From Marchantia polymorpha subsp. ruderalis (taxonomy: Eukaryota > Streptophyta > Marchantiopsida > Marchantiales > Marchantiaceae): 64,000 bases of DNA. The translations under genes and the position numbers were made by a program. Position 1 is the first letter of the stretch. Every line of letters starts with the position of its first letter. Shown here one piece after another: positions 4,479 to 41,756 of the stretch. The stretch covers positions 1,174,001 to 1,238,000 of the forward strand of contig AP031359.1 of assembly GCA_037833965.1 (NCBI GenBank). Reading direction: 5' to 3'. The notes beneath the pieces are model-generated. The model did not search any database. It saw only the letters and a program-made list of their open reading frames with translations, and had not been told where the DNA came from.

Positions 4479-5101
4479 GAAAGACACAGCAAGTCGGTGA
4501 CGGTCTTCGTGAGGATGTGGAGAGGGCCAAGTGCACAAGCGTGGACCTCCTAAAAAGGCTAGAGGCATGTAGGATCGCATACAATGTTGAGTCATTGAAG
4601 GTGGATGAGTTGCAGGCTGCCGCGAAGAAGGAGCAGGAGTACCACTCTCAGTTGGGGGTGAGGGCGAAGAAGCTGACCGAGTATGAAGCCGCGCGGATCA
4701 CGGACTTAGAGTTGATCAAGAAGTTAGAAGCGCAGTAAGGCAAATTGAGGACGCAATGGTCGCAAGCTGAGGAGCAGTTATGTGAGGTGGAAGCAAAATT
4801 GACGGAGGCCGAGGGGAAGAATCGGCAGTTATCAGAGGAGACGCGTGAAGCCTTAACTACGAGAGTGGAGCCATGTTTGCGCGGATATGTGTTGTGGCAG
4901 ATCAAATCCCACAACGGACTTTGGTTACGCGAGATTGAGCACCGTGCAGCCGAATTGATAGCGAGAAGCGGACGGAGGCATTGTCGGTTATCCAAGAAGC
5001 TTGAGTCGTATCTTACTAGATCTCGGGACGTGGTAGCGAATCTGGAGGTAGAATTAGTAAACGTTTTGAGAAGATTAGGTTTAGAGCGAAGGTTAGACTA
5101 A
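4479..5101 (+). pseudogene. Gene H: C-terminal coiled-coil fragment, F-like subfamily
   Basis: One reading frame runs from the LTR-A junction to TAA at 5099, broken only by a TAA at 4736. It encodes about 205 residues of coiled coil. The C-terminus (LRGYVLWQIKSH, RRLSKKLESYL-like, VNVLRRLGL) matches the C-terminus of gene F (LRGYTHRKVAALEKL, VAKKLDSFLSKSRD, VLRRLGLRS) better than genes A or C. The N-terminal half should lie left of LTR-A, outside the window. It ends exactly where a retroelement fragment (5100-5311) begins. Confidence 0.65.
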
Positions 5102-5311
5102 GCTTGGATCCATGATCTCATCCACGTTTGGGAGGTGACATGGCGCGCAATTGCGCACATGATTCTTTCAAATCACACCATCGCGACCCTTCAACAGAAG
5201 AACTCCAAAAGATAACACCTCCCTCACTTGCAAGATAGTGCCTCCTCGTCACATCCAACGTTATTGGTGTAATTTGCTGTAGATAGATGTAGTCTCCCAC
5301 ATGGAACCTAC
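5100..5311 (-). mobile_element. Fragment of the methyltransferase retroelement (post-integrase region)
   Basis: Read on the minus strand, this 0.2-kb piece matches 19620-19822 of the complete element: VGDYVYLQQ-like followed by TLDV, then the VIFWSSSVEGS-like stretch and the cysteine-leading end before the PHD finger. It sits between the end of gene H and the start of gene B. No boundaries or target duplication are recognisable, so it is a recombination or repair remnant, not a complete insertion. Confidence 0.75.
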
Positions 5312-6222: not shown

Positions 6223-8641
6223 TTGGAATTGAAATTGGAATTAGAATTGCGTTTATGGAATTGGAATTGCGTCTCAACGAGTATTTGGAAGGAGGTTATG
6301 GACAAGAGCGCGACCGAGGGCGAGGAGCTTTGCGGTAATCCCATGTTGTGGACCATCGAGCATTGGACGAAAGTAATGGGACCGTGTGCGGGAAGCGACG
6401 GAGACCTTCTGTTTGACAAGAATAGCGTAGGACTTACGCTCGTCGAGGAATTCTCTTACGGGCCTCTCTTCGAGACGGGAAGACATGGAACGAATGGATG
6501 TAAGACTATCGATTATAAGGATCCGAAGAGAAGGGCGATCGCGTTAGGGATCATGCACATCTTACGATCGGCACGCACGACTTATGTGACGGCCTGGCAG
6601 GTGGGATTCTTCAAACGCATTTTGAAGGGACAGCGCGTACATTGGGCAAGGATCTTTTACGACCTTGTCTGGGTGAATGCGTCTGGTCGATGGACGGGAT
6701 CTATGACCAACCATCTCACCCCCTTTCTAGTGCATTTCTATCGAGGAATGGGATTGCTTACGAGGGAGGAGGAAAAGCGATTTCCGAGGAAGCGGGAGAG
6801 CTTTACAGTGGAGTCCAGTGAGGGGACCGAAGACAAGAACCGGTCTCCCGCAATTCCGACACACACTACCGCTCGAGGACCAGTGCAGGTGGACATGGTT
6901 CCAAGGCAAGAGCAGTCAGAGAGGCGAGTGGCAAAGAAAAGGAAGGTCGTAAGCGATGATGAGGAGGAATTGACCCACACGGTAAGAAGGATGGATATGG
7001 AAGTGAGTGGAGCCAGACAGCACAGAGCTCGCGCAAGACTAAATAAGAGGGCAAAACAGAGGATGGTGACAGTTGAGGTGTCAAATAGCAGTGTGGAGAA
7101 GACGGTGGCACCAATTGTGAACACATCCGACGTCGCAAATAGTGACGTAATGCGATCTGTGGAGTTAGGGGTACCTTCGGAGGTGTCAATCGAAGATCCG
7201 GCAGATATACCGGCAGAAACCTTTGAACGAGAGAACGGAATTGGTAAGTCCGATTTCTTTGTCTTCGGAGCGGACACTATCTGCGCAAGGCGAATGGACA
7301 CCCCAGTGAAGATGAACAAGGACCTGGAGAAGGAGTTTACTTTGAGCGAGGAGATTCTGGAACAGGTTGTCGCAGGGGTAGGAGACACGGTGGTGGAAGT
7401 CGAGGGCATTACACTGCCGACGTTTCCTGTGGAAGAGGTGAGACCCGAAGAAGGGAAGAAGGCTTCGGGTGAAGACGTGAAGACATTGGAAGTTACATTT
7501 CCTAAATTCTTGCAGGATAGTGTAGTTCCGTTGTTGAAGTATTTGGATGGGAAGAGAGGGAAGTATGCCGTATCGAAGGAGCCATGATTCTATGTACAGA
7601 TGATTAGAAACAGGATGAAGCTCAAAAGAGCAGTTGCAGTAAAGAGGGAGTGGGATTCCGCGACTGCATTGGCACGGGAGCGAGCTGCAACCTTGTCAAC
7701 CGAGTGCGCAGCAGTGAAGGCGACATTGCGGGAGCGAGAAGCCGAGCTTCGAGAGAAGGAAACTAAGTGTGAAGTGCTGCATCTGAATCTAGAGAAGGAA
7801 TCCGGGCGATGTGCAAAGTTAGAAGAGACATGTGGAGGACTTCGTATCTCTAATGAGAATGCACAGAAAGTAACAGTGGATTTGATGGCGAGATTGGAGA
7901 AATCCAGAGAAACTTACGATGCAACAGTCAAAAGGTCAGAGCGGTTGATCACCACAGCGGAGAAGCAAGAGAAGAATTACATCGAGGAACTTGCTAAGTT
8001 GGAGGGCCAAAGAGCCGAAGAAGCTCGCATCGCCGAAGAACTTCGGGGCAAGCTCGCAGGTACAAAGACGGCGGAGGAAGATCTTCGTAGACAAATCTCA
8101 TAGATTGACGCCAAGTACAAAACTGAATTCCGACGTGCGGAGAAGCTATCAACAAGTCTGTCGGCGGAAAATCAGAAGCATGAAGACGAGTTGAAGGATT
8201 GGGCCAGAAATTGGCAGAGTACGAGTCGGCCAAGTCTTCGGAGGTCAAATGTAGATTAAAGGTTGAATTTGACTGTCGACGGTTACGGGAACAGTTAGGG
8301 AAGTTGGAGATGAGATTTGAAGAGTCGCAGAGGAGAATGCAAAAGGCAGAGGATGCCTATCGTCAGCTGCGGGAGGATTCAACCGACGTGTTGAGATTGC
8401 GGTTAGAGAAGTGCCTGAACGGGTTTGCGATGTGGGGATTGGATTCGGTGAAGTGGTTGAAACTGGATCTGCTCGAGCGACGGCTGATGAGCGCGAAGTC
8501 CAGCAGATCCGCAAGACACAAACAGATTGTAGAGTTAGTTAATTCATTTTTAGAGGAATTGAATGAGGCGCGACAGAATGTAGAAGTTGAGATTGTTAAC
8601 GTGTTGCGTAGATTAGGAGTAGAGAGTAGTTCAAATGATGC
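6223..8641 (+). pseudogene. Gene C: LTR-borne coiled-coil protein, 5'-truncated
   Basis: The reading frame from 6223 lacks the usual first ~35 residues (KKLVPLKVPYEEL). In their place are slipped copies of TTGGAATTG. From WNWNCVSTSIWKEVMDK onward it is the best preserved member: a globular domain to about 6790, a middle with KKRKVVSDDEEELTH, FLQDSVVPLLKYLDGKRGKY near 7500, then a long coiled coil. Lesions are TGA at 7585 (GGA expected), TAG at 8101 (GAG expected) and a one-base loss near 8200. The end (VNVLRRLGVESSSNDAV) is cut at 8641 by the methyltransferase retroelement and the last bases of the gene reappear at 20707. Function unknown. Confidence 0.75.
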
Positions 8642-8925
8642 TGTCATGTAGTTACGAGTCGGCTCACACAGTTTGGGCACTTACTATATTTAGACGTGGA
8701 AATAGGGTTCGGATCACGAGGGGTATAGAGTCGGGGACGGCTCGAAGAACGTTAGTTCTTCGAGTCGAGCTTGGAAGCGTAGAGCGACTTTCTCCTTTGC
8801 GTCGACCTAGATTCTCCGAGTGTGGAGTGGGTTGGGTTTGACTCATGTTTGTGACGGTGACGGTTTGTTGCTAGTAGGGTAATTGACCGACGGGAATTTC
8901 AGTGGGGGATCTCCCGTTCATTTCA
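8642..8925 (+). repeat. 5' terminal repeat (Y5) of the methyltransferase retroelement
   Basis: This 284-bp sequence is repeated directly at 20292-20584 with roughly 5-6% differences plus a 9-bp insertion in the 3' copy. It starts TGTCATGTAG and ends CATTTCA. It contains CTATATTTAG (possible TATA-like box, near 8684) and a perfect 10-bp-arm hairpin at 8741-8764. The segment X that completes the 3' LTR is missing here. I see no clear primer binding site immediately after it. Confidence 0.75.
8741..8764. promoter_or_regulatory. Hairpin CTCGAAGAAC-GTTA-GTTCTTCGAG in the LTR
   Basis: Perfect inverted repeat with 10-bp arms and a 4-base loop. In the 3' copy (20391-20414) both arms carry the matching change (CTCAAAGAAC and GTTCTTTGAG), so pairing is kept. 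The alternating GAA and TTC units also resemble heat-shock-type elements. A regulatory role is inference. Confidence 0.5.
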
Positions 8926-11730
8926 CTCAAAGAACTCACGTAGGTTCTTAGTAGCGGAATTTTTCACAATTTGTTTTACAGGTTTCGCTATCGGTGTTAG
9001 TGTTGCCTTGGTTGTGGTTGCGGTGCATGAGATCCTTCGAGGAGTGGCAGGTCGATTGATTCTTTGTTTTTGGATCGAAGTTTGTTCGAGATTTGGTTCT
9101 TCAAATTGGTCGGGTTTGAGAGTTGTACTTTTTGGTTTGCATCGATCGTGGTTCAACAGTCGTTATTGCAAGAGAATAGAGTGTCGATTGTCTCGGGAGA
9201 CAGTTGCCCAGATCCTCTGCAGAGATCCTTAACTTATCGACCAAGCGCTGACAATGTTTTAGGTTTTAGGCGGTCGATGAGCTCGTTTGAAGGTGGTTCA
9301 AAGATTGCAGAGCGTGTCTGAGGAAAGTACAGATTGATACTTTGTGGCGGGAAGTTTCATAGTTATCTCGGGGTTCTCCAAGAGAAAAAAAAAGACAGGG
9401 ACAGAAGTTTCTAGTGGACGTCAATGCATGGTTAGAGCTCCGAAAGAGCGGCAGTTTCTACGATCTGAACGACTCTATCAACTACGCGGATCTTTTCAGT
9501 GCGTGCGGACTGTTCTACCATTGCTGATTGCATCGCAGAGGTCACAACTCGGTTTGCGGCCCTTGAGGTCCTACGGGAGAGTATAATCATTGCTCTGAAC
9601 TTCAACTACATTACGGTTCGTAGAAGTCAAGGACTGTGATGCATTAGCCATAATTTCTCAATCAGTGGTGAATAATTATTCCTCCTCTATTTACTTCACC
9701 TCCCTCGGTGCCTGTTGGCCGCTGCCGATGCACTAGTAAACCTGATTGGAGTTTCAGGTCCTGTTCTATATTCCGAGCTATGTGACACTGGATCCGCTTT
9801 ACAGTATGTTGCAAATCTGAAACTCCAGTGTACGTGTTGTGCTACACCTGCAGGGAGTCGAATCTCCATTTGTCATAAATCCCCCCGCTACCCACGGAAC
9901 GCAGTTTGCAGTCAGTGTTTGCACAACTTAGAGCGGAGGAAGAGAGTAATTACAGTGGCCAATGCTAGAGTGTTCTAGGTCTAGCATGTCGGCAAAGCTA
10001 TAGAGGTGATACGTCAGAAATTGAACTACTGCCACACCAAATTCGAGACAAGGCAGTGGGACTATATATACGATGTGAAGTGTAGCTCATGGGGTATAAT
10101 GTCCTAGTACGAAACAGTATAGTGTAAGTGGTGTGATAGGGCTTGCTCACGGGCGGATTCAACACAAGACACATGGTCATGATGAAAGGAACACAAGTAC
10201 TTGTGTAGGGCAGATTAGGGGCTTCCTTGTGACAAATGCACTTTAGTGGTGGTGTTTACGGTGGTCTGTGACAGAGGTAGCAGCAGAGAATACAGAAGGA
10301 GTGGTGGAGCTCGTGAATACGTCTACTGTACCTATTGGAGATTGACCATCCTCTGATTTCTGGGAGCCCGAATTCTTCAAGACGTACTGATTCAAAAGTC
10401 AGGTACTCGGTCCCACCACTTATCAACAGGGTGATCGTCTGCGAGGGCTTCACTTTCTCGAAGGTGCTCTCTTCAGTTCTTAAATGCTTGGATACTACTC
10501 TCAGGTTATGAGAGATCGTTGAATACGTCACCTGGAGATTCCATTCACAAGTTGTGGAAGGACATGGTTTTATACGGGGGAGGTCAGAGGTTTCTCAGGC
10601 TTTGTTACTTGTTGAAACCATGACACTTTACTGTAGAGTCGAAGTCTTGGTACGTGCAACTTACACTTGGCAATTTTGAGCGAGTCGAGTTTACTGTTTA
10701 CTCTAAACTTCCGACTCTGATCTCATTTGACCTAGTATCAGTACGTTTGGGAGTCCTTCGGGAAATCTATTTGTTGTTTTGAAAAGAAACGAGTACTGAA
10801 AATACAGTATTACATACATACAGTATTTTCAATACAACTCCTAGCATTTCTAGATCCGAACGTTTATATTTAATTGGTAGATTGCCACGAAAAGTAGCCA
10901 TCATTGGCTAGCTGTTGAGCCAAGGATAGTAAGTGAGAACACCTAGTTAAAATCTACGGTTACTCAAATCTACACTTCCATGACTATAAGATTGTTGCCT
11001 GCAGTAGAGCGTTGAAAATAAATATCCGTAATTTAGAATTCAGGAGTACTATATACACCTGGTTCGTTTAGCTTGAAGACACTACAGAGTTTTTCTGATC
11101 AAATTTCCGAAGAGTGGAAAGATTATCATTAAGTGGAGGCACAAAGAGGATGGGTCGAAGGTGAAGGTCACTACCACTCTCAGGGTGAAGAAGCGGATCA
11201 AGAGGTTGAAACCTGCTGTTATTTATAACAGCGTGTAGTTGATTTACATATTGTGGCTTTTGAGTCATTGGCAAGGTTACATTTTTGGAGGACTTCAAAA
11301 ACTGAATCGGTGGATGAGTCAAGATCAAGTTCTAGGATATAAATCAAAACCTTTAGATGGATCAAGAAAGGGTTTACAGTAAGAAAGGGCTTTGAATAAG
11401 GGCCACACTATCATATAGTAGGAGCCTGAACCTAGTCGTATCAGAGTGTGGCCAACTTGTTTGCAAGTGACTTTGTCTTTTCCTTCTTCCTAGCCCTTCT
11501 ATTTTATCGTATCAGTTTTTAGTGATAAAATACAGCAGTGCTAAGTTTGCAATAGAAAATTTTGATTTCACTAGTTAAAGTGAATTTGTTTATGCCAAGT
11601 TCTTTGAAACTATTAAACCCTTTTAATAGTTTTATAGTTAAACAGTTTTCAGTTTTCCCTTCAGATTTAGTTTATAAATACTCTGTAAGCAATCCTTGTA
11701 CACAGTGAAGTGTTGACGCGTGAATAAGAA

Positions 11731-12090
11731 ATGCCGCTTAGAGGAAAAGCGGACGATAGTGATATACAAGAAATCCAGACAGTGGAGGTCGTTAGCACCG
11801 AGGAACGTGATCAGGAGCAGGAGGTGACAATGCAGCCTCAAATAGAAGAGAATCTGGTAAACACTGTTGTGGTAGAAGAAAAAGATTCCGGGTTAGATTG
11901 GGACGAGGCACTAGCCGTGGAAAAACTTCTAGAAGAATCTGGCCTAGAGTACAGGGTATGTGAGGATGAGTTACTAGACCTTCCGCAGGATATTGCTGAC
12001 CATTTGAGAGATGTTCAGTATGTTCAAGATTGTCTTTCAGAAGAAATTCTTGTACTAGAGAAATTTCTTGATAGTCTTCCAAAGGATTGA
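11731..12090 (+). CDS. Short acidic open frame in the retroelement leader
   Basis: A 119-codon frame from ATG 11731 encodes a strongly acidic protein (many E and D, few aromatic residues) with leucine-rich stretches near its end (CLSEEILVLEKFLDSL). It lies upstream of gag in the same orientation and is intact, unlike its surroundings. I do not recognise a family. It could be an accessory protein of the element or a chance frame. Confidence 0.3.
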   Translation: MPLRGKADDSDIQEIQTVEVVSTEERDQEQEVTMQPQIEENLVNTVVVEEKDSGLDWDEALAVEKLLEESGLEYRVCEDELLDLPQDIADHLRDVQYVQDCLSEEILVLEKFLDSLPKD

Positions 12091-12264
12091 TAGCAACTAC
12101 TTGTAGACAGGATGTACTGAAGGGATCGGGAGTTTGCACCCGGTCTCACTACCTGTAAACTTGATGTTTTGAAAGCATTGTAAATATATATATGACGTAG
12201 TCAATATATTGAGCTTTCAGTGTGTAGTGTGTTTGTTGAGGGGCAGTGTGACCCCTGTGTGAAG

Positions 12265-12295
12265 GAGAGAGAGAGAGAGAGAGAGAAAAAAAAAA
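12265..12295 (+). repeat. (GA)n microsatellite followed by an A-run
   Basis: About ten GA units run directly into ten or so A residues. Its position just upstream of gag is shared with no other copy that I can see. Confidence 0.9.
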
Positions 12296-12967
12296 GTTTT
12301 CAAATAATTTTTGTTGCAATTTGGTGGAAGAGGGCATCATAGGCACTGGAGTCTCACGTAGATGGAGGGCAATGGAGATCGAATCGGGATCGCGAAGCGA
12401 TGCGATGTCCCGTGTGTGTTGTCTTGTTTTATGCTGTGTTTCCTTTAGACTGGAGAGTCGTTGCTAGCTGTTTGCGTGTGTTTGGATCCTCTCCAGTCTT
12501 GATTCCTAGTGCACGCCCGTGTAGGAGTGACGTTGATTTCCGGAGTAGTTTTACTCCTGTGCTGTCGATAGGGGGCTGGACTTGATCACCGGCCGGCCTA
12601 TCTATGTTTCTCTCACGGTGAGACTGGAGTGATTACCAGTCGACTGTGAGAGTCTTCTTGCTGTGATGACAGGTTAGGTTGCCCATACCCCTTAGCTAGT
12701 AGGGCTAGAGTAGCTCAGTGCGGCACGACGTCAGGTGCACATAGTGTTATTGGGTGGAGATCTGGCAGTGGTGCCAGTTGAGGTTTTGTCATCACGGAGC
12801 AGTCTAGTGGTCCTGTTGAGGACTGCGGTGGATTTACGCGGAGTGGGTTGAGGTATCGGCTACCTTCACCTATTTTGCCAGTTGTTGCGGAGCACGACCA
12901 GAGTGTTGCACACACAGAGTCTTTGGTGGTGATATCGCCTAGTGTTTCAACCCCATTGATTTGGGAC

Positions 12968-14930
12968 ATGGACGGGATGTACGGGGCCGTGAAGGGCCCT
13001 CGACGTTATTTTGGTGCAATGGGCACCATCGAGCTCGATGATTTTATTCAGGAGTTCGACACGTGGTGTGATATGCAGTTTCTGCGTAACCCCACGTTGT
13101 TTACACCCTTCTTTGCGTGGAAGGGGTTATTCCAGCATTTGGAGGGGCCTCCCATGGACGATTATCATGAGTTTGGGAGAGAGTATGCTGCAGAGATTGA
13201 TGCATGGAGACGGCATTGGTCTCCAAACTACTCATCCATTACCCAGGGTGGTGTGGGTACCAGTGGAGGTGCAAGTATCGGCATCAGTGGAGGTGCAAGT
13301 AGTAGCATCAGCGAGGGTACCAGTGGAGCAGTTGGCGCAACTGGTACCAGTACCAGCAGCGGTACTGTTAGCATTGCCGGTGGCAGCACGAGGGGACATG
13401 CTAGTGGCGTACCTTCGTTTAGCTCCATTCCCGAGTTCTTCCAGAGATTGAGGAAAAATTATCAGGGGGTGAAAACGGAGAAGTTGAGGAGCCTCCAGGA
13501 GTTTGAGCGGAAGACTGGTGAGAGTCTTCGTGAGGCATACACTCGTATGCGACGGCTTATCTCAGTTACTCACGGTGTGACTGAGGCACAGGCTGTCCAG
13601 TACTGATATCGGATCCTGGACAGAGAGTTGCGGAGGAGAGTGCGTGATGCTACTCTCATGAGCGACTCGTCACCCACAGTAGCCCATGTGTTTGCTCTTT
13701 CTGAGAAGATAGAGCTTAACATGGTGGAGGAGAGGGTGGTGACGTCTACATTTGCGAGGGACACGACCACCACTTCGCGTATCCCACATAGCCCAGCACA
13801 GTTTCGCCCCATAAGTGGGAGTCGTGGAGGTCATACACGACATCCTTCAGGTCATAGAGAGCCTAGTGCGCGGCCACCACTGCCTTCATTTTTGGGCCAG
13901 CCACAGGGACCGTCATGTTGGACATGCGGAGGTAGTCATATGAGGAAGGATTGTCCCCAGGAGCGAGAGGGACAAACTCCACATGCTAGGCCACAGCCGG
14001 CACAGGTGACCTGTGATCATTGTCATCGACCGGGTCACCCTCGAGAGCGTTGCTTTGACCTTCATCCTGAGTTGAAATCTGGAGGTAGAGGTCGTGGAGG
14101 TGATGCTCTGCGAGACCGAGGTGGTCGAGGTGGCAGAGGCGGTAGAGGTGGTAGAGGTATCGGTGCCATTGAGCATACCGCAGCGAGTGCTACTTCAGCC
14201 ACAGAGAGCGCTATGGGTGCTCGGATTGAGCAGTTGGAGCAGAGGCTTGCTGCTATGGTTGGTCTGGGGGCGAGCACTTCCACACCTTACGAGGGAGAGG
14301 ATTTCTCCTACTTGGCCAGTGCAGCACAGGTTGAGGCATCAGTTGCAGTGACCAGAGGTGGTGCTCGCACTTCAGAGCCAAGTAATGCGACTGTGGAGTT
14401 GGACCCTCATAGAGGTGAGGGTGGAAGTCAGTCTAGACTTCCCCAATCCTTTTTGTTGTCAGAGGTGGGTAGCAGTCCATCTATGAGACCTGCACCGCCT
14501 AGTGACACTAGAGTGAGAACTAAGGTTCTTACATCATCTGTTGTGGACGCAAACGTGCCATCTAGTGCAGTGATGCGGATGGCCACTTCAGTCTTGCGAT
14601 CTCCATTGTTTTCAACCACGGAGTTGATAGACTTTGGTATTGATTTGGCTCGAGTATTTTGGGTAGCAGCCACGTCGTGTGAGCGTGGGAGAGTCGCTGC
14701 TACGAGTGCCGAGATACGTGAGGATACAGTTGAGGACCCATCCTCAACGTCTACATTGTTCGAGGAGACGACTTGGCAGGCCGCAGCGGCGAGGATGGAG
14801 TCCTTACCAGCTCGCCCAGCCATTGATCGCGAGAGTATTGTTCCTGGTGTATGTATGGTGGACAACCGAGGTGGTCTATTTCGGTTAGTGAGTTCTACTG
14901 GACAGGTGTATGTCCCAGCCAGTTTTTGTT
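12968..14930 (+). pseudogene. gag: Gag of the methyltransferase retroelement
   Basis: The first ATG in the open frame is 12968 (MDGMYGAVKGPRRYFG); the frame is open upstream to about 12848. A capsid-like part includes SLQEFERKTGESLREAYTRM and YRILDRELRRRVRD. It is interrupted by one TGA at 13604 where tryptophan is expected. Two zinc knuckles follow: CWTCGGSHMRKDC (13916, one residue shorter than the standard spacing) and CDHCHRPGHPRERC (14012, standard CX2CX4HX4C). A glycine-arginine tract (14080-14160) may bind nucleic acid. The frame continues into the protease, where an indel near 14925 shifts it. A related gag segment occurs on the minus strand at 30400-30690. Confidence 0.8.
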
Positions 14931-15219
14931 GGATTCTGGTGCACAGCCCTTGATGTTGGGCAAGGCTGCATGCATTAGTTTGGGCATTCGGAGGTAAGAG
15001 TTGGAACCTTGCCCATTCCAGATCCAGACATCCCTTGGTGGCGCCAGCAATAGGTCTTACTTTATGACCAGGGAGAGCATAGCGGTGCAGTTGAGGCATG
15101 ATCACCCTCATGATAGCTCGCAGTTTGGAGTTCGTGCTGTGGTTACATCAGCAGAGTCATATGATGTGCTTGTTGGTGGAGTGGTGTTATACCCGATGGG
15201 CTTTCGGATGGACTATTAG
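14905..15219 (+). pseudogene. Retroviral-type aspartic protease
   Basis: The catalytic LLDSGAQPLMLG motif is read in frame 1 from 14929, just after the frameshift that ends the gag frame. The second half of the fold follows as YDVLVGGVVLYPMGF near 15160. Stops lie at 14996 and 15217. The minus-strand copy at 28652-29194 shows LLNIGAQPLMLG at the same place, so its catalytic aspartate and serine are lost. The domain would have cut the polyprotein. Confidence 0.75.
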
Positions 15220-15282
15220 ACGGAGACTGCCGCATATCGTCCTGGTTGGCAGTCCGGAGATGGACGTCTGAGTGAGCTGCCA

Positions 15283-16858
15283 GTGAGATTTATTTCTCGG
15301 GATCGACCTCTTGGATCTTCATCAGCGGTCTTGGCATCTGTTGCGAGTTTTAGCGGAGTGCTTACCTGGCCCGATGACTTGTTGGAGGGGAACATGTCTG
15401 CCGACGATACCTCAGTCTACGAGGATGTGGAGGAGGTTGTGAGTTTCACAGCGGCGATGACTTCACCCTTAGATGTTCCACTGTGGAGTTCGTGCCAAGC
15501 ACTACAGTTGGAGGCTGATAGGTTGGTAAAAAAGGCTTGGAGTGAAGCCTCTTTACCAGCAGAGCCAGAGAGGGCCTCAGCCGATCGGCTAGTTGGTGGT
15601 TCTAGCGCATTGTCTCCATTAGTTACTACACCTATTGCATGGGAGTATTCCTCAGAGGGCGTTTGTTTGCTAGATCTTTTTGGTGGGATCAGCACAGGTT
15701 TGGATGCGGTGTTGCAGTCAGGTATTCTCGTACGGAGATACTTGTATGTGGAGAAGAACGAGACTACACGTCGAGTCTCTTCACGACATGTTGCACAGTT
15801 GATGCGGCGTTTTCCTTTGTTATTGCCGCGATCAGTTGTCCGAGGATTCCAGAAGGCGTTGCCTTCAGACATTTCGTTGCTGGGGGCGCCAGACCTTGAC
15901 CGCGTTGGCCATATTGATATGGTGATTGCGGGCTGGCCATGTCAGGGACACACACGCGCTGGACATGGGACAGGATTGCATGATCCTAGATCTCGGATGT
16001 TTTGGGAGATGATGCGAGTGTTACGTGATCTCCAAGTGCAGCAGATGCGTTCTCCAGCATACATTCTGGAGAACGTACCATTGTTTGGTGACACTCGGAC
16101 CCAGTTGATGGCGAGTGTCCATCAAGTCCGAGCATGGATTGGATCAGCATTACTGTTGAATGCTGCGAGGGTTGGATCACGGGCTCATCGTGCCCGTTTA
16201 TGGTGGACCAACATTTTGCCACGTGAGATATTGCGTCATGCCTATGATTCTGTGCAGCGTGATCCTACACTCACCGTTGACAGTATCTTGGATGTTTTCC
16301 GACACTCTCAGGTAGTGAGAGTTGCTGACAGGTCACCTATGGCAAAGGTGAACCGCGTAGGTCAGCCTCGGATGGCTTTACCTACATTTGTCAGTTTTTC
16401 CGGCATCACATGCATATCGTGATGGTGGACCTTGACTACTGTGGGACAGTACAGTACATCAGTTGGTGGAGCCCAACGTTGATGAGAGAGAGCGTGCGAT
16501 GGGATTTATGACTGGTGTCACCGCAGCTGCTATAGTTTCAGAGGCTTCGCGTCGTCAGGTTTTGGGTCAAGCTATGAACTTGAACTGCTTGACGTGGATT
16601 GTGAGCTTGGGTTTGTCGGAGCAACGCCGTTTGCGCGCAGATTTGATGGTTGTTACACCACTTATTAGCTCAATGCCTACCGGGACGGTAGTGGCAATGG
16701 CTGGGGGCGACAGGCGAGATATTTGTCATCCTTGGAGTTTATGGGACGTGACGAAAGGACTTGCCAGAGTTGCAGCCCATGCAGTTGGAGAGGATTCTCA
16801 TGTGGAGGTGGCTACGAAGGAGGGTACGGAGAACCCTTCTTTGCAGTGTGTAGCGTAG
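15283..16858 (+). pseudogene. Retroelement-encoded cytosine-5 DNA methyltransferase
   Basis: Motifs of C5-cytosine methyltransferases appear in order: motif I CLLDLFGGISTGLDAV (about 15667, cofactor site), motif IV VIAGWPCQGHTRAG with the catalytic Pro-Cys (about 15925), motif VI YILENVPLFGD (about 16060), motif VIII SRAHRARLWWTN (about 16180), a target-recognition-like stretch, then ERERAMGFMTGVT and RRQVLGQAMNLNCLTWIV (motifs IX-X, 16485-16610). AHRARLWW and the short spacing resemble the DNMT3/DRM side of the family more than DNMT1. Motifs I-VIII lie in frame 1 and IX-X in frame 2, so an indel near 16405 broke the gene. All catalytic motifs are otherwise present. It lies between protease and reverse transcriptase, a rare position. 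Established knowledge: retroelements carrying such enzymes are reported from charophyte algae and dinoflagellates. Confidence 0.88.
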
Positions 16859-16864
16859 CAACCA

Positions 16865-17875
16865 TTGACAGTGTCGCCTCCCTCTAGTGTGCCTATGGAG
16901 GAGGAATGGGAGCCATTGATTGGTTCCCAGATCACAGGAGGAGAGAGGCGACGATTGACACAATTCCTACGAGACTATAGGAGTTGTTTTGCTTTCAGTA
17001 TGAAGGAGTTGGGTGCGTTGATTGGACCCGGTATACGGATAGAATTGGCTAGTGATACGCCAATCTTCCGTCGTCCTTATCGATACAGTGAGATGGAGAG
17101 AGATTTGATTCGGAGTAGGACGTTGGACCTACTGGAGGCTGGACTAGTGGAGTGATCGCATGGTGAGTATGCGTCAGCCACTGTCATGCCGGTGAAGAAG
17201 GATGTACATGGCAATTACACGGATAGGCGCATGTGTGGAGACTACCGTCCTATCAATCGGCCGACGAAGTCCGATAAGTATGCCATGCCTACACTTGAGG
17301 AGATCTTTGATGTGGTGGGACATGCGAGGATTTTTAGTACTTTGGATCTTCGGGCAGGATACCATCAGTTGCCAATTTGGGAGGAGGACAAAACCAAGAT
17401 AGCGTTTTGGGGCGTCAACTCCCACGGCAAGGATTGTTTGTATCAGTGGCGATTCTTACCCTTTGGGTTGAAGAATGCACCTGCCGAGTTTCAGAGGGTT
17501 ATGGACAGAATCCTGGCGGGGCTGGATTTTGTCAGATGTTACATTGATGATATCTTGGTGTTTAGTGACACTGTGGAGCAACACCAAATACACTTGCAGA
17601 TTGTGTTTGAGCGATTGAGGGCTCATGGTTTGAGGTTACATCCTGGGAAGTGTAAGTTCATCCAAGAGAAGGTTGAGTACTTGGGTCATGTGATATACCC
17701 AGGTGGTTTAGGAGTTCAGCAAGCAAAGGAGGCTATTGCACGCATGCCTCGTCCCACGGATGTGAGTAGAGTTCGTGCATTCATGGGTTTGGCAAACTAC
17801 TACCGGAGATATGTGAAGGGGTTCAGTGCTATAGCCAAGCCTTTGAACCAGTTGCTGAAGTCGGATCAGGAGTGA
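16865..17875 (+). pseudogene. pol: Ty3/gypsy reverse transcriptase
   Basis: Typical gypsy motifs run in order: RMCGDYRPINRPTKSDKYAMP, STLDLRAGYHQL, LPFGLKNAPAEFQRVMD, the catalytic CYIDDILVFSD (YIDD at 17540), and LGHVIYPGGLGV, then FMGLANYYRRYVKGFS at the connection. The catalytic residues are intact. TGA codons at 17153 and 17873 break the frame. It shares one frame with methyltransferase motifs IX-X upstream and RNase H downstream, consistent with a single polyprotein. Confidence 0.88.
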
Positions 17876-18424
17876 CAATGGGGAGATGAGCAGGAGAAAG
17901 CTTTTGTTGAGCTCAAGGCCAGGTTGGTGGCCGCTCCCATCTTGAGGAGACCTATCAGAGGTCGTCCATACCAGTTGCACACTGATTGGAGTATGTTGGG
18001 ACTTGGAGCGGTGTTGACGCAACGTGATGATGAGGGCAAGGAGTTTGTGGTTGCGTACGCTAGTCGTTCGAACAATGCAGCGGAGTCGCGGTATAGTTCG
18101 TACGAGGGAGAGTGCTTGGCAGCGGTGTGGGCTGTGGCAAACTTCAGGTGTTACTTGTTTGGTACGCAGTTCACCCTTGTTACTGATCATCAACCGCTCA
18201 AGTGGTTGATGGAATCCGACAAGTGGTCCGACAAGCTTACATGAAAGCTTGCACGGTGAGCTCTCATCTTACAGGAGTACGACTTTCAGGTAGTGCATAG
18301 ACCTGGAGTTGCGAACCTAGATGCCCATGGTTTGAGTCGGAACCCATGGGTTCCGACTAGCCAGGAGGATGACACTGGAGCTAGATGGCATGGTGATGTT
18401 GACGAGGAGATGGTGCCTAGTTAG
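17876..18424 (+). pseudogene. pol: RNase H domain of the gypsy polyprotein
   Basis: Follows the reverse transcriptase in the same frame: WGDEQEKAFVELK, LHTDWSMLGLGAVLTQ (the first catalytic aspartate in HTD), SRYSSYEGECLAAVWAV (catalytic glutamate) and LVTDHQPLKWL. Stops at 18242 (probably a glycine codon) and 18257 (tryptophan) lie before LQEYDFQVVHRPG. The linker beyond it has no recognised domain. Confidence 0.82.
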
Positions 18425-18689
18425 CATGCATCTGCCTTCATGTGTTGGTTACGTGGGAACTCCAGCAGAGAGGATCATCTGACATCTTACTCTAGTCAGA
18501 GAGTAGATGGTCGATCTTCAGATCCTGAGGTTGAGGATGGTGGTATGGATCAGTGTGATGTTCACGATGATGCATTGGTGTTGGAGTTCCTACGGACCAG
18601 CATGGTGCCAGGCACGGTGGGTGCCAAGGAGCGAGATCGTGTTCTCCAACGGGCGAAGAGATACCGATTGGAGGGATCACATGTTCTTT

Positions 18690-19840
18690 GAGTCTGGGAG
18701 GACGGTAGGGTACGAGTAGTACCACATCCAGCTCAAAGAGCACGCATTGTGAGGCATGCTCATGAGGAGTTGGGACATTTTGGAGTGAAGCATACATACA
18801 GCTTACTCCTTGGTCAGTATTGGTGGCGTGGTATGCATACTCAGGTACAGCAATTGGTATCACGTTGCATGGTTTGTGATCGAGTGAGGGCATCATTCAA
18901 TGCCCCGACACCAGTGTTACATCCATTACCCATCATGGGGTTGGGTTACCGTTGGAGTTTGGACTTTGCTTGACCACTACCTTTGACTGTACGACATCAT
19001 CGGTATGTGTTGGTGATGGTGGAGCATTTCTCCAAGTGGATTGAGTTGGTGGCATTACCTAACAAGGCAAGTGACGGAGTAGCGTATGCTTTTCTTGACA
19101 GAGTGCTTAGTCACTATGGTGCACCAGCTGAGGTGTTGACCGATCAGGGAACGGAGTTTCAGGGTGAGTTTCAGGTCTTGTGCGACAAGGCACTGATTGA
19201 TCATCGGACCACGTCGCGAGATCATCCAGAGGCGGATGGTTTAGCTGAACGTGTTGTACAGACGGTGAAGAGGGCGTTGTGCAAGTATGGCCTGCAGAAA
19301 GGTCATCTTGGGGACTGGGATATCCAATTACCGTGGTTGGCCATGGGATATCGGTTAAGTCGGCAGGCATCCTTGGCTTCCTTCTCACCGTATTTTCTAT
19401 TGTACGGCCAAGATCCAGACTTGCCAACATCGACTCGTCGTGACTCTAGCGAGGTGGTGAACCTTGATGACCCGAATATGTGGGTGAGAGTATGTTCTCA
19501 GCGTGCATAGCTCTTTCGGAGAGTTATGCCTGCAGCGTTTGAGAATCTTGCGATTGCTCAACATAGAGATACGTTGCGGTATGCAACCATTCGGGGAGAA
19601 GGTTATCGACCATCAATTCGTAGATTCCATGTGGGAGACTACGTCTATCTACAGCAGACTGCACCGACGACATTGGATGTGACGGCGGGACGCACAATCT
19701 TGCGGGTGCGGGAGGTGTTACCTTCTGGAGTTCTTCTGTTGGAGGGTCGTGACGGCGTTGTTTGGAAGGATCATGTGCGCAATTGTGAGCCATGCCACCT
19801 CCCAAACGTAGAAGGCACTATGGACCCAAGCTTAGCAATA
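18690..19840 (+). pseudogene. pol: Integrase and downstream GPY-like tail
   Basis: A zinc-binding HHCC head is readable (HAHEELGHFGVKHTY, then CMVCDRVRASF), followed by the catalytic core with D in WSLDFA (about 18957), D in LTDQGTEFQGEF (about 19137) and E in HPEADGLAERVVQTVKRAL (about 19225). The region after the core contains VGDYVYLQQTAP and HVRNCEPCHLP. Stops lie at 18689, 18972 and 19508. Domain order RT-RH-IN places the element in the Ty3/gypsy group. The tail copy at 5100-5311 matches the VGDYVYLQQ region. Confidence 0.85.
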
Positions 19841-19846
19841 GTACGT

Positions 19847-20002
19847 GCTGGCTTGAGGTGCATGCTGTGTGAGTCAGCTGGTTAGGCGGCCCGTATGTTG
19901 GTGTGTGATAGGTGCTTTAGGGGATGGCACATGTCGTGCCTAACTCCGCCTATCGATGTTATTCCGGCTGGACGATGGGTTTGTCCTCGATGTACTTCAT
20001 AG
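19847..20002 (+). pseudogene. C-terminal PHD finger of the retroelement polyprotein
   Basis: The spacing is a PHD-type Cys4-His-Cys3: CMLC, then CDRC, GWHMSC and VCPRC, ending at TAG 20000. A TAG at 19883 interrupts the loop after the first pair. The aromatic residue after the second pair and the W two residues before the final pair (GRWVCPRC) are the usual PHD landmarks. The frame is the same as for integrase. PHD fingers often read histone H3 tails. In gypsy elements a chromodomain commonly sits here to guide integration, so a PHD finger may take the same role. That role is inference. Confidence 0.8.
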
Positions 20003-20160
20003 GGGTAGATGATTTGATCTTCACATGTTATGAATTGCAGATAGGCGACTAACGATGGGGCGACATAGCACCTGGCCTACTGGTTCGCGCACCCACGAAG
20101 GTGTATAGCATGTAGTTGTAGATAGGGCTACCTGGGAGTCAGAGGGACCTGACCGCCAGC

Positions 20161-20172
20161 TAGGGGGGCGAG
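20161..20172 (+). other. Polypurine tract
   Basis: TAGGGGGGCGAG stands directly before TTGTGACATTTG, the first X copy, as expected for plus-strand priming next to a 3' LTR. Its contact with X rather than Y is part of the unusual arrangement of this end. Confidence 0.6.
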
Positions 20173-20289
20173 TTGTGACATTTGAGTGTGTACTCTCTCG
20201 CGCCTTATGTGTGTGTATGTGTGTTCGTATGTGTATGTGAGTAGCATGTCAGCGATGTAGAGTGTATGGCGATATGTATTCGCACGATA
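20172..20289 (+). repeat. First copy of segment X at the 3' end
   Basis: This 118-bp segment (TTGTGACATTTGAG to CGCACGATA) is repeated almost perfectly at 20585-20702. It contains GT-rich stretches. A reverse-oriented relative lies in gene F at 23666-23780. Confidence 0.85.
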
Positions 20290-20291
20290 GC

Positions 20292-20702
20292 TGTCATGTA
20301 GTTTCGAGTCGGCTCACGCAGTTTGGGCACTTACTATATTTAGACGTGGAAATCGGGTTCGGGTCACGAGGGGTATAGAGTCGGGGACGGCTCAAAGAAC
20401 GTTAGTTCTTTGAGTCGAGCCTGGAAGCGTTGGGAGCGTAGAGCGACTTTCCCCTTTGCGTCAACCTAGATTCTGTGAGTGTGGAGTGGGTTGGGCTTGA
20501 CTCATGTTTGTGACGGTGACGGTTTGTTGCCAGTAGGGTAATTGACCGACGGGAATTCCAGTGGGGAATCTCCCGTTCATTTCAGTTGTGACATTTGAGT
20601 GTGTACTCTCTTGCGCCTTATGTGTGTGTATGTGTGTTCGTATGTGTATGTGAGTAGCATGTCAGCGATGTAGAGTGTATGGCGATATGTATTCGCACGA
20701 CA
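20292..20702 (+). repeat. 3' LTR of the methyltransferase retroelement (Y3 + X2)
   Basis: TGTC at 20292 and GACA at 20702 form a short terminal inverted repeat, and ATGC duplications flank the whole insertion. Y3 (20292-20584) matches Y5, and X2 (20585-20702) matches X1. Because the 5' side carries only Y, the ends are not equal. Possible explanations are given in the findings. Confidence 0.65.
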
Positions 20703-20784
20703 ATGCTGTACCCGTTACATCGGACGGCACAGCCCTTGAGGCCGATTCGCCTGAGGCGGTTGATATCCCAGAGTTGCCATTGTG

Positions 20785-24009: not shown

Positions 24010-24640
24010 GGACGGCAAAGGGGTCAGCGGACCTCCCTACGCCGAAGGCACGGACGCCTTCGGTGGAAGCAAGACGGCCTTCGGGTCAAGAGAGACAACA
24101 CGCGGCACGGATGAGGGTGCCGGCAGCGGATAGGAGAGCCACTCGAGCACCGTACGCGGACTCGCCTTCGGGGCTGGGGCCTTTGGCTCAAGCGCCTTCG
24201 GCGCAGTCGCCTCCGGTGCAGCGAAGGAAGGGAAAGGAGCCGGCGGAAGATCCGCCTTCGACTTCAGGGCCTTCGGGGCGAGGTCCTTCGGCGGTGAGAC
24301 CGTTGGAAAGTGCGCCTTCGGTGCAAGGGCCTTCGGGCCGAGGAGTTGCAAGTAGGGAGCTGGCGGGGAACGCGCCCTCGGCGGGAAGTCCGCCGGAAGG
24401 TGCGCCTTCGGCGGAAGGGCCTTCGGGCCAAGGGATATCAGGCGAGCCGCCTTCGGCGGAGGCGCCGCCGACAAATGTGCCTTCGGCGGTGGCACCTCCA
24501 ACGCAGGACCTATCGAAGGAGCAGGACCTAACGGAGGAGCGGGATGACAGTCGGAAGGAGGAAACACGTGTGTGCGATGCACAATTGCAATCCGCGTAGA
24601 CACCTTCTGCACGAACGCCTTCGGCGATGCGGAGTTAGCA
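24010..24640 (+). repeat. Hairpin repeats inside the gene F coding region
   Basis: GCCTTCGGCG and its variants occur about twenty times here. They are translated mostly as Pro-Ser-Ala or Pro-Ser-Gly triplets. The unit length is often a multiple of three, so most additions would not shift the frame. Confidence 0.85.
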
Positions 24641-25835
24641 GAAGCTGGACGGGCAAGCAGTGCGAATTTGGCACAACCCAACTCTCCCACCGCCTTAGAT
24701 ATTCTGGCCGGAAGCAGCGAGGCTGCAACGGCAACAGTGGTGGCAGACGACGCAGACACCACAAAGCCACACTCACGACAGTCGCCGGAGAATTCAGTGG
24801 CAACCGAAATCCTCAGTTCGGAGGATGACGAAGGAGGATCGACGGAATCGGCATCAGGATCGGGATCGAGTGAGGAGGAGAAACAATCAGTGGCAGGCAC
24901 GCCGACGGCGGCACTCTGCGAGCAGTTGGTACCTCTGTTGAGGTACCTTGATCGCAAAGTAGAGAAGTATGCAGACCCCCGCCAGCCTGGGTCCTACGTC
25001 GAATTAGTGCGTAGGCGGACTCGCACTAAAGTCCACACCAGCAAGTTGTTGGCCCGTCTGGATGGGGACCTTAAAGATCTGCGGGAGAAGTATGAGTGTC
25101 TATGGGGCCACCTTAATCTCACTCAGAAGATGCACAAGGCCATCGACAAGTCGAAGGACGAGAAGCTTGAAGAGGCGGCGAAGGAGTTCGCCAAGGAGAA
25201 GGCGAAGCTCGTAGAGGAGCTGGATTCTGAGCAGGCTCAGAATCGAATTTTGTCAGAGGAGCTCGTGCGACAGACACGGTTGTTGAAGCAGTGTCAGCTC
25301 GCACGTCAGGCGGATGAAGAATTAATCCGCAAACTGCAATCCGAGTGCGGGGAATTGAGAGCGCAGCGTACGGAGGCCGAATTGCAGTTGGTTGTAGTTG
25401 AAGACGATCGCGGGCGGGAGGCAGATCGCACGAAGGAAGAGTTGGCGAGGCGAGTCAGCCACTGTCTCAGAGGTTACACCCACAGGAAAGTGGCGGCGCT
25501 GGAGAAACTCACACTGCGTGAGTTAGAGCTTCGTGCGGCGGATTTGGTGTCAGGTGACAGTCGGAGCCGGCGGCGAGTGGCGAAGAAGTTAGATTCGTTT
25601 CTGTCGAAATCGCGGGACGCCATGGCCACCCTCGTGACAGAGGTTACTGCGGTGTTGCGGCGGCTGGGACTGCGCAGTCGAGCTGAAGACTGGCAGGATA
25701 GGAAGTTAGTGCGCGGCAATCCGTCGCGCAGGAGGCGAAGCACGGGTTCTGCAGAGTGTAGTGTAGCGTGGTTTCGTGCACGCGTGGTACATTGTAGTGT
25801 AGTGTTAGTTAGGACTTAGAAGGTATAAAGTAGTT

Positions 25836-26604: not shown

Positions 26605-26816
26605 TGAATGAACTACGCTGCACTGTGCGACCTCCGAGGGATCTCCGAGTGAACACTTGCAGTATTTCTTGGAGTGACAATCGCCTGAGAATTCAAACTC
26701 CTCAATAGTCTGTTAAATGTGACACTTTGTACTATGTGTGCTGCCTCTGTCCCTGTGGGTTCGACCTTTCTACCACTATATTGCAGTTTTAGCCTTTGGT
26801 GGATTATTACAATTGG

Positions 26817-27885
26817 CGAAGAGAAGGAAGGTCGTGAGTGATGACGAGGAAGAATTGGCCCACGAGGTAAGAAGGGTGGATATGGAGGTAGATGGAGCGA
26901 GTGAGCACAGAGCACGCGCAAGATCAAAGAAGAGACCGAATCGGAGGATGGTGACAGCTGAGGTGTCGGACAGCAGCGTAGAGAAGACAGTGGCATCAAT
27001 TGTGAACACATCCAAAGTCGCAGCTAGCAAGGTAATGCGGGTTGTTGAGATAGGAGTACCTTCGGAGGTGTTAATTGAAGTTTCATCAGACATACCAGTT
27101 GAACCTTTGAAGGAGAGTATGGAGTTGGTAAGTCCGATTTCTCTGTCTTCGGAGCAGACACGGTCTGCGCGGGGCGAAGAGACACCACAACTGAAGATGA
27201 ACGAGGACCTGGAGAAGGAGTCCACTTTGAGCGAGGAGATTCTGGAGCAGGTTGTCGCACGGATTGGAGGGACGGTGGTAGAAGCCGAGGGCATTACACT
27301 GCCAACATCTCCGGTGGAAGAGGTGAGACCCGAAGAAGGGAAGAAGGCTTCAGATGAAGACGTGAAGACACTGGAAATTACATTTCCTGAATTCTTGCAG
27401 GATAGTGTAGTTCCATTGTTGAAGTATTTGGATGGGAAGAGAGGGAAGTATGATGTATCGGAGGAGCCAGGATTCTATGTACCGATGATTAGGAACACGA
27501 CGAAGCTCAAGAGAGCAGTTGCAGTAAAGAGGGAGTGAGATTCCGCAACTGCATTGGCACGGGAGCGAGTTGCAACCTTGTCATCCGAGTGCGCGGCAGT
27601 GAAGGCGATATTGCGGGAGTGAGAAGCCCAGCTTCGAGAGAAGGAAACTAAGTGTGAAGTGCTGCAGCTGAATCTAGAGAAGAAATCCGGGCGTTGTGCA
27701 GAGTTGGAAGAGACCAGTGGAGGACTTCGTATCTCTAATGAGAATGCTCAAAAAGTAATAGTGGATTTGATGGCGAGATTGGAGAAATCCACAAAAGCTT
27801 ACAGTGCAGCAGTCAAACGATCGGAGCGGTTGATCACTACTGCGGAGAAGCGAGAGAATATGCATATCGAGGAACTGGCTAAGGA
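26817..27885 (+). pseudogene. Gene B, part 3 of 3 (middle and coiled coil, truncated)
   Basis: The frame resumes after LTR-F with AKRRKVVSDDEEELAHEVRR, passes FLQDSVVPLLKYLDGKRGKY (about 27400) and enters the coiled coil. Stops lie at 27536 (tryptophan expected) and near 27619. The gene is cut at IEELAK (about 27882), where the minus-strand methyltransferase element begins. The last ~170 residues of the protein are therefore missing. Confidence 0.75.
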
Positions 27886-38400: not shown

Positions 38401-39006
38401 TTTAGTATTTTAGAAATAGATGCTAAATTTAAGAAAATTTTAATATACTTCTTTATTGGATCAGTCTTTTGTGAATTCAAAACTGTAATTGAGTATTGAA
38501 TCATTTTTGTGAGTATTTTTTAATAAAAATGCTTTTATTTTGGATTAAAGTACACATTTCATCACAAACATCTTATTTGATATGCGTTGATGATTACTTC
38601 AAACAACTAAAAAAAACTATTAAATAAGTGAAAAGTTTGTTTTGTGTAACACAAATGAAATACACAAATGAATGGATTTACACAAAAAAATAAATTTGAT
38701 TCATTTCTGTACATCATTTGTTATGTGTACAGGTAATGAACAATAAAAATTCAATAATGCAAAATGCAAGCAAACATAGCAAGTTAAGATTGACTTCGTT
38801 TCATTTTGTGATATAAACTATGGGCATCATAATCAATCTTAACACATTCCAATCTAGAAATATTGTTGTTAATTGTTGTTGAAAAAAATATAAAAAATTT
38901 TATCAATAATCATAAGCAATAAAAAGTGTCTCAATATAATATCATGGTATTTGTTTCACAATTTTTGCATCAATTATTGATGATATGATTGGCAAGTTAT
39001 TTGTTC

Positions 39007-39043
39007 ATTCATGTTCATCATTTTGAAGATGATGAACATGAAT
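39007..39043. repeat. Palindrome, 15-bp arms
   Basis: ATTCATGTTCATCAT and ATGATGAACATGAAT are separated by seven bases. Confidence 0.9.
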
Positions 39044-39592
39044 ACTTGAAATAAATTTTCAACACGTTCAAGTTGCAATAAATTCAAACTTATTCAATAA
39101 CAATAAAAATTTGACTATGCTTTGATATGGTAATTGAATATGTATCAATTGGTCTAATTATTTTGACAAATTGCAGTAACGATAGAATTGTATCACAATC
39201 ATATCAAAAAATTTAAACTAATTGGCTTGAATAAACAATATTTTTGGTCCATTTTTTGGTATTCTGATCAAAATCTATAGAAAAAATTTATTTGCTTCAA
39301 CTTATTTACTTTGTATCTTATGGAGTTGGTATAGCTAGTATATTATAGATATCATACATGTTTTTAATCAAAATTCCAATCCAAAAAGGCAAAAAATAAC
39401 TACAAGCCAATATGTGATTTTATAACAAGTTAATTTGAAATAACGTTTGATTAATATTTGCGTCAAAGATCAAATATAAAACATATGATCTCTAGGCTTA
39501 ATTTTCAAAAAATAAAGTTACTTGCTAAATAAAAAAATTGGTTTTTGTAAAAATAATAAGATACATAGTCATTTAATTTGCTTTAATTATTA

Positions 39593-39627
39593 TCGATTGT
39601 TGTACTAATAATTAGTACAACAATCGA
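39593..39627. repeat. Palindrome, 15-bp arms
   Basis: TCGATTGTTGTACTA and TAGTACAACAATCGA are separated by five bases. Confidence 0.9.
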
Positions 39628-41675: not shown

Positions 41676-41708
41676 GGACAATCTCATCCTATTAGGATGA
41701 GATTGTCC
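41676..41708. repeat. Near-perfect 33-bp palindrome
   Basis: GGACAATCTCATCCTA and TAGGATGAGATTGTCC flank a single base. Confidence 0.9.
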
Positions 41709-41756
41709 AGTAGTTATTGTTAAGATGGAATTTCGACTTATTGATGAGAAAAACTC

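Follow-up and report, generated by a model that had tools for sequence, protein, structure and literature searches.

Retrotransposons are commonly held in check by cytosine methylation, and a retroelement that encodes a cytosine methyltransferase of its own, kept by selection, raises the question of why being methylated should pay. The question is posed here by a decayed Ty3/Gypsy element of 12.06 kb, located at 8642-20702 (+) of a stretch of 64,000 nucleotides (hereafter the window) from the liverwort Marchantia polymorpha subsp. ruderalis (contig AP031359.1, positions 1,174,001 to 1,238,000), and flanked by a 4-bp target duplication. Between its protease and its reverse transcriptase (RT) lies a cytosine-5 DNA methyltransferase (DNMT). 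Comparing the element with its copies and relatives, we consider it likely that a Ty3/Gypsy lineage of bryophytes, and of one further host, carries a DNMT3-type enzyme as a long-standing working part, with the mechanism proposed below. It seems to be a mobile element able to write the mark its host uses for silencing it. Since many open copies are present in Marchantia, close to a tractable model plant, the question can be put to the test.

The methyltransferase of the element

The open reading frames (ORFs) of the window in 12848-19885 match the Pfam models for a C5-methyltransferase (PF00145, 6.6e-10), RT, RNase H and integrase (Table 1), and a Gag match of 0.0042 falls below the Pfam cut-off. 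The order RT-RNase H-integrase and the Gypsy-type RT are those of Ty3/Gypsy elements, and the best PDB match of ORF2 in an open copy, L009, is Ty3 (3.1e-100). No tyrosine-recombinase match was obtained among the window ORFs run against Pfam, which hold a DDE integrase (PF00665) instead.

Methyltransferase motifs I, IV, VI and VIII are found in frame 1 (about 15658-16400) and motifs IX-X in frame 2 (about 16484-16615). The best PDB match of this domain is DNMT3A (8.4e-8). A profile of ten relatives also matched DNMT3A best (2.5e-20), with a good fit from motif IV to motif X and a weak one at motif I. The same profile matched 4onj and 4onq ("DNA methyltransferase", 6.8e-11), which we take to be tobacco DRM, and DRM2 chains (6.3e-7), in each case no further than motifs I-IV. 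It also matched HaeIII (2e-8), HhaI (9.8e-8) and DNMT2-type enzymes (1.8e-7). The enzyme is thus closest to DNMT3, with the linear order I-IV-VI-VIII-IX-X and without the DRM permutation. Capture of a host DRM is not favoured, because the motif order is linear and the DRM2 chains match motifs I-IV only. According to the excerpts of PMC5784723, the published methyltransferases of the M. polymorpha host are a single MET, two CMT enzymes and two DRM enzymes, with no DNMT3; therefore, the element's enzyme is not a simple copy of any host gene on that list. Matches, motif order and the likeness to DNMT3A all bear out the sequence-only reading of this locus, which had placed a C5-methyltransferase between the protease and RT of a plant Ty3/Gypsy element.

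The window copy is broken by in-frame stops and single-base frameshifts, so that no single open frame exists. Many of these stops are TGA; reassignment of TGA was rejected because 14 of the 20 copies fetched for comparison need none. By tblastn, homology to ORF1 of L009 starts with the codon at 12968 and ORF2 homology ends with the codon at 19999. The span 12968..20002 of the sequence-only reading hence covers the coding part from the first to the last matching codon, but the element itself is longer.

Copies in the genome and selection on the methyltransferase

At least 107 further loci, spread over all nine contigs, match the DNMT in the same genome. The search yielded 109 matches at 108 loci, the window among them (one locus is matched in two pieces), and this is a lower bound, given that 108 of 656 candidates were scored. 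With so many loci carrying it, a late insertion of the DNMT into one copy, which the sequence-only reading had named as a refuting outcome, is rejected. The matches sit in uninterrupted frames of 1348-1365 codons in 26 of the 109 cases. The comparison drew on 20 fetched main-subfamily copies that were selected for their open frames, and on three copies of a diverged subfamily. From Gag to the end of Pol, DNMT included, both ORFs are free of interruptions in 14 of the 20 and in two of the three, which provides the intact copies that the sequence-only reading had proposed looking for. All 16 open copies have DNMT motifs I, IV, VI, VIII and X. Contig C1, on which the window lies (5.59 Mb, 2.3% of the 241-Mb genome) and whose size would suit a sex chromosome, holds 8 of the 108 loci among the candidates scored.

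The DNMT is under purifying selection. Between the subfamilies (Nei-Gojobori, 14 main-subfamily against 2 diverged open copies), the ratio of nonsynonymous to synonymous substitution rates (dN/dS) is 0.12 for the DNMT, 0.14 for the protease, 0.15 for the linker, 0.18 for gag, 0.17 for a PHD finger at the end of ORF2, 0.06 for RT, 0.04 for RNase H and 0.06 for the integrase, values that the choice of open copies may bias down. The stretch from the DNMT to the UAG that ends ORF1 is nearly free of constraint (0.70). Within the main subfamily, the corresponding polymorphism ratio (pN/pS) is 0.23 for the DNMT, 0.30 for both RT and integrase, and 0.46 for the PHD finger. Finally, an alignment of 16 relatives, to which protein P0124 and its kin, described below, do not belong, shows no variation in the residues W-P-C-Q.

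Relatives in bryophytes and green algae

In a first homologue search (107 matches, many of them nameless), the named matches belong to Marchantia, Riccia sorocarpa, Calypogeia fissa and Sphagnum species, the closest being proteins of Marchantia polymorpha, and none belongs to a vascular plant. A search for long homologues yielded metagenomic proteins, including P0124, which in turn gave 240 matches; among the 120 of these that were listed are Haematococcus lacustris and Monoraphidium neglectum. No relative was found in viral contigs. The protein search suggested by the sequence-only reading thus leads to liverworts and Sphagnum, and beyond them to elements of an algal type. A further relative, L038, is a 9.3-kb metagenomic contig filed under a cyanobacterial metagenome-assembled genome, yet it is clearly a retroelement of the same kind (50% identity to Marchantia in the DNMT, 32% over the whole of ORF1 and 65% in ORF2). 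We suspect its host to be a streptophyte alga of soil crust or a moss. The ends of this contig overlap (1-48 / 9159-9206) and it was assembled as a circle, which reflects either real circular DNA or collapsed repeats.

The two types differ in where the DNMT lies. According to hidden Markov models, 102 of the 122 proteins numbered P0124 upward (one of which is from Marchantia) have the order RT-RNase H-DNMT-integrase-PHD, in one long ORF. Among the 123 proteins numbered below P0124, of which 18 had no domain found and two (P0082 and P0094) are of algal type, the DNMT precedes RT in 9/9 bryophyte-type proteins with both domains found; its position is not peculiar to the one copy in the window. 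Bryophyte ORF2 aligns to the algal elements in two blocks, RT-RNase H and integrase-PHD, between which the algal DNMT lies. Identity in these blocks is 42-49% for the most part, falling to 34-38% in the remotest elements, and the DNMTs are 32-41% identical between types. In motif IV, the 121 algal-type DNMTs have ECQ (61), PCQ (17) or another triplet (17), with 26 not matching the simple pattern used. The catalytic Cys is retained in all pattern-matched sequences; ECQ beside the bryophyte PCQ is an unusual change. As to further domains, P0124 has an extra G-patch match and, by eye, a possible second methyltransferase-like stretch at its C terminus, and P0156 has a PTM/DIR17-like Tudor match below the cut-off.

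The differences in DNMT position and, for the most part, in motif IV are what would be expected if related elements of the two types had captured host DNMT3 genes independently, instead of a DNMT captured once having later moved, and we regard such a double capture as quite possible, though short of probable. Against it stand the identities between types (32-41% for the DNMTs; for the flanking blocks mostly 42-49%, and 34% at the lowest) and the fact that DNMT distances track those of RT and integrase. Over the 101 elements in which each of the three domains covers ≥80% of its model, the distance correlations are 0.54 for DNMT-RT, 0.48 for DNMT-integrase and 0.46 for RT-integrase (each p 0.001); for the 98 algal-type elements alone, they are 0.57, 0.58 and 0.47, respectively. 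The copies L009 and L029 and the contig L038 group apart in all three unrooted trees (DNMT, RT and integrase; support 0.997-1.0). In a DNMT tree of 133 sequences, with human DNMT3A as the only host DNMT3, the bryophyte-type set has a support of 0.81 with P0059 and of 1.0 without it.

Two reading frames, dosage and substrate

ORF1 of the 16 open copies encodes Gag-protease-DNMT (1278-1299 aa) and terminates at a UAG. ORF2 (RT-RNase H-integrase-PHD, 1042-1045 aa; 1042 aa in the open copies of the main subfamily) continues directly behind it with zero gap and no change of frame. The border reads UAG CAA CCA in 19 of the 20 main-subfamily copies, in the window copy and in two of the three diverged copies. 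The exception among the 20, L019, has gag-like sequence at this position; of the 23 copies with the site in place, one deviates from UAG CAR YYA. L038 has the same two-ORF layout, with UAG CAA UCA. Assuming equal base use, this motif would be met by chance at about one stop in 1500. In tobacco mosaic virus, CAR YYA right after the UAG is reported as essential for readthrough in the excerpts of PMC2754532. The element thus resembles the tobamovirus replicase in its UAG followed by CAR YYA, whereas here the UAG, known from sequence alone, separates a Gag-protease-DNMT ORF from an RT-integrase ORF. Consequently, the "all-in-one polyprotein" of the sequence-only reading finds no support in that wording: given the UAG between DNMT and RT in open copies, and the interruptions of the window copy, a single polyprotein would be at most a readthrough product. 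Since the DNMT lies with Gag, upstream of a UAG in readthrough context, it probably travels at Gag abundance, and a DNMT at Gag dosage is what the layout predicts.

An enzyme this abundant could act broadly, and its main substrate might be host DNA, the DNA of competing viruses or elements, or RNA, instead of its own cDNA. An anti-viral role has been proposed for transposon methylases (PMC6338049, excerpts), and an RNA substrate has been considered for the LINE class (PMC5890265, excerpts). However, fusion to Gag and protease would place the DNMT at the site of cDNA synthesis, and its best match is DNMT3 and not the RNA-acting DNMT2; we therefore think another main substrate unlikely and retain the cDNA as the candidate.

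The dosage would be different if the UAG were a true terminator and Pol were made through reinitiation, splicing or a separate transcript, in which case the ratio of DNMT to Pol would not be fixed. Marchantia ORF2 does have a Met at codon 13, and the bryophyte gene models P0111 and P0115 join DNMT and RT, presumably via predicted introns. In L038, however, the first Met of ORF2 is not reached before residue 117, which already lies within the conserved beginning of RT. A reinitiated protein would lack that beginning, which argues against such a route. The zero gap, the shared frame and UAG CAR YYA in two diverged lineages also speak against a true terminator, which we consider rather improbable compared with readthrough. 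Least of all do we expect the methyltransferase to be retained only as a structural or nucleic-acid-binding domain, a very unlikely case that the inactivity in yeast of a related Klebsormidium domain (PMC5890265, excerpts) and the ECQ of 61/121 algal-type relatives would favour, and that the intact catalytic motifs of 16/16 open Marchantia-type copies and the invariant W-P-C-Q speak against.

Terminal repeats, insertion and the PHD finger

Two features not described in the sequence-only reading are the terminal repeats and the PHD finger. The repeats are split, with A1 at the 5' end and B1-A2-B2 at the 3' end, and the element runs TGTC...GACA. Its TG...CA termini and short target duplication are those of Ty3/Gypsy elements; a complete long terminal repeat at both ends, as these elements have, was not found in the repeat comparison. 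A1 and A2 are 98.0-99.7% identical within four open copies and 91.6% identical in the window copy, which is therefore older. A1 is present in all six other copies for which upstream DNA was fetched, with only its 3' half in L012, where the fetched stretch ends. In L038 and in the four open copies that were extended, B1 meets A2 in the palindrome GACAGCTGTC, from which the window copy differs by one base. A second exact B end follows A2 in 16 of the 20 main-subfamily copies; the other four are rearranged, diverged or cut there.

A perfect 4-bp target duplication was found in five of the six copies readable at both ends (L009 AAGA, L011 AAAG, L017 AGTG, L026 ATGT, window ATGC), and that of L010 is off by one base (ACGC/ACTC); in L012 it is unreadable because the fetched stretch ends inside A1. 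Elements of the DIRS/PAT/kangaroo type also have split direct repeats (A1...B1-A2-B2), together with a tyrosine recombinase and no target duplication. The window element shares their repeat arrangement and differs in both other respects, having a DDE integrase and 4-bp duplications. To our knowledge, a DDE integrase and target duplications on split repeats are an uncommon pairing. From A1 to about 12300, the five copies compared (window, L009, L011, L017, L026) are mostly unshared, the elements being otherwise 95-98% identical, as if the region between A1 and gag had been swapped or captured.

The end of the frame has a C4HC3 motif; its counterpart in the homologue P0017 is recognised as a PHD finger. 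It holds CDRC in 15 of the 16 open copies and CDMC in L022. The best solved-structure matches of the P0017 finger include CHD4, PHF12, DPF2/3, ATXR5, KDM5B and PHF21A. Several of these fingers read unmethylated H3K4, which is a lead and not a test.

Proposed mechanism

Most translation would stop at the UAG, yielding Gag-protease-DNMT at the abundance of a structural protein, and occasional readthrough would add Pol, dosing it relative to Gag-DNMT. The DNMT would be packaged in the virus-like particle and methylate newly made cDNA before integration, most likely at CG. The B1-A2 block could template the regeneration of the termini, and the PHD finger of the integrase might steer insertion by reading histone H3. 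A pre-methylated new copy would probably resemble resident host DNA, at the cost of a silencing that host maintenance enzymes would then keep. Self-protection or mimicry is a plausible purpose of the DNMT.

The window copy may retain a trace of past methylation. At sites invariant in the 14 open copies, its 155 specific changes include 78 C>T/G>A and 24 T>C/A>G. By known context, changes affect 14/521 CG, 21/531 CHG and 30/2068 CHH sites. This decay, with a C-to-T excess at CG and a larger one at CHG, fits methylation in both contexts.

Several points weigh against the enzyme being an active, readthrough-dosed writer of the mark. The CHG excess speaks at least partly for host enzymes, and the selection of open copies affects the dN/dS values as stated. 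With near-identical copies, conservation of the UAG within the genome is weak evidence, so the weight lies on L038, a single contig; moreover, the third diverged copy has UAG CAA CAA at its border. The Klebsormidium Gypsy DNMT produced no methylation in yeast, a result given as inconclusive by its authors in the excerpts of PMC5890265, in which the SymbioDIRS DNMTs do methylate CG in yeast. Finally, given that motif IV is PCQ in only 17/121 algal-type DNMTs, activity cannot be taken for granted throughout the wider clade.

In its widest form, the proposal would be a clade of chromatin-writing retroelements across green algae and land plants, with a readthrough-dosed DNMT in the land-plant branch, every particle loaded at Gag level, CG-methylated cDNA, a DDE integrase working on split-repeat and possibly circular DNA, chromatin chosen by the PHD finger, and a DNMT that would have accompanied the backbone from a time before the green lineages diverged and would have moved once. 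We put this forward tentatively and consider it doubtful as a whole.

Comparison with published elements

The combination of a Gypsy backbone with a DNMT3 is already known. KnitGypsy-Dnmt3 of the charophyte Klebsormidium nitens was published in 2018 (de Mendoza et al., PMC5890265); in the excerpts of that paper, its DNMT lies inside the Pol ORF with a Ka/Ks below 0.2, and a figure legend gives its repeat structure as DIRS-like. It shares with the Marchantia element the Gypsy backbone, the DNMT3-type enzyme, the DIRS-like repeats and purifying selection on the DNMT. It differs in the position of the DNMT, which in Marchantia is in ORF1, upstream of the UAG. Neither readthrough of a stop codon nor a PHD finger or target duplication is mentioned in the excerpts, and the two elements are compared by description only, given that no K. 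nitens sequence was identified among the homologue matches listed (120 of 240 for the P0124 search). The dinoflagellate SymbioDIRS-Dnmt3 and SymbioLINE-Dnmt (PMC5890265, excerpts) are also retroelements encoding DNMTs, with the different backbones of DIRS or LINE elements. The homologue matches show that the association between retroelements and DNMTs extends beyond the two lineages described in 2018.

A 2019 opinion article mentions, in its excerpts and with no detail, DAM- and DCM-encoding Ty3/Gypsy and DIRS elements of green algae and charophytes (PMC6338049); therefore, the algal association as such is not claimed as new. The same excerpts state that land plants such as tracheophytes are without transposon-encoded DNA methylases, which the bryophyte elements contradict if all land plants are meant. 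A 2025 DNMT survey again gives streptophytes and dinoflagellates, with LTR Copia and DIRS elements (PMC12344493, excerpts), and the excerpts of PMC5784723, PMC6453930 and PMC9998398 name no such element. In the searchable literature with open-licence full text, no report was found of land-plant (bryophyte) members, their UAG readthrough layout, or their PHD finger.

Features of the window

The features of the element are presented in Table 1. An Rfam scan gave nothing at gathering level.

Table 1. Coordinates of the Ty3/Gypsy element and its parts in the window.
Feature	Position	Strand	Basis
5' target-site duplication copy, ATGC	8638..8641	+	Read from sequence
A1, 5' terminal repeat, starts TGTCATG	8642..8925	+	91.6% identity to A2
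5' region, largely unshared among 5 extended copies	8926..12967	+	Pairwise BLAST
gag with CCHC-like knuckles, interrupted in window copy	12968..14650	+	tblastn of L009 ORF1; PF03732 below cut-off
Retropepsin-type protease region, interrupted in window copy	14860..15280	+	Homology to LLDSGAQ region of open copies
DNMT3-type cytosine-5 methyltransferase	15658..16650	+	Pfam, PDB profile; motifs I-VIII frame 1, IX-X frame 2
UAG + CAA CCA, tobamovirus-type readthrough context at ORF1/ORF2 border	16856..16864	+	Read from sequence
ORF2, RT-RNase H-integrase-PHD, interrupted in window copy	16859..19999	+	Pfam, open copies, tblastn
Reverse transcriptase	17167..17850	+	PF00078, 1e-32
RNase H	17924..18350	+	PF17917, 3.8e-31
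DDE integrase with C-terminal extension	18720..19830	+	PF00665, 2e-12
PHD finger, integrase C terminus	19845..19999	+	PF00628, 4.4e-9 in homologue P0017; PDB PHD matches (P0017 finger, L009 ORF2)
B1 repeat	20171..20289	+	99% identity to B2
A2 repeat	20292..20583	+	Repeat comparison with A1
B2, 3' terminal repeat, ends GACA	20584..20702	+	Repeat comparison
3' target-site duplication copy, ATGC	20703..20706	+	Read from sequence

Other remnants of the same kind are present in the window. At 27896-30689 (-) lies what is left of a DNMT-Gypsy element that has diverged further, 59-61% identical in amino acids to L009 ORF1 and extending into about the first 60 DNMT residues, and at 5098-5311 (-) an integrase-tail fragment of the same family as the element described here. 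The stretch 36001-42000 is AT-rich (26-32% GC) and without ORFs of ≥160 aa. By eye, ORFs at 57963-60615 (+) resemble Copia-type RT and RNase H, and similar-looking coiled-coil ORFs surround the element (3008-3847, 7600-8103, 24572-25819 and 26738-27538 (+), and 32851-33417 (-)), which are perhaps another repeat family.

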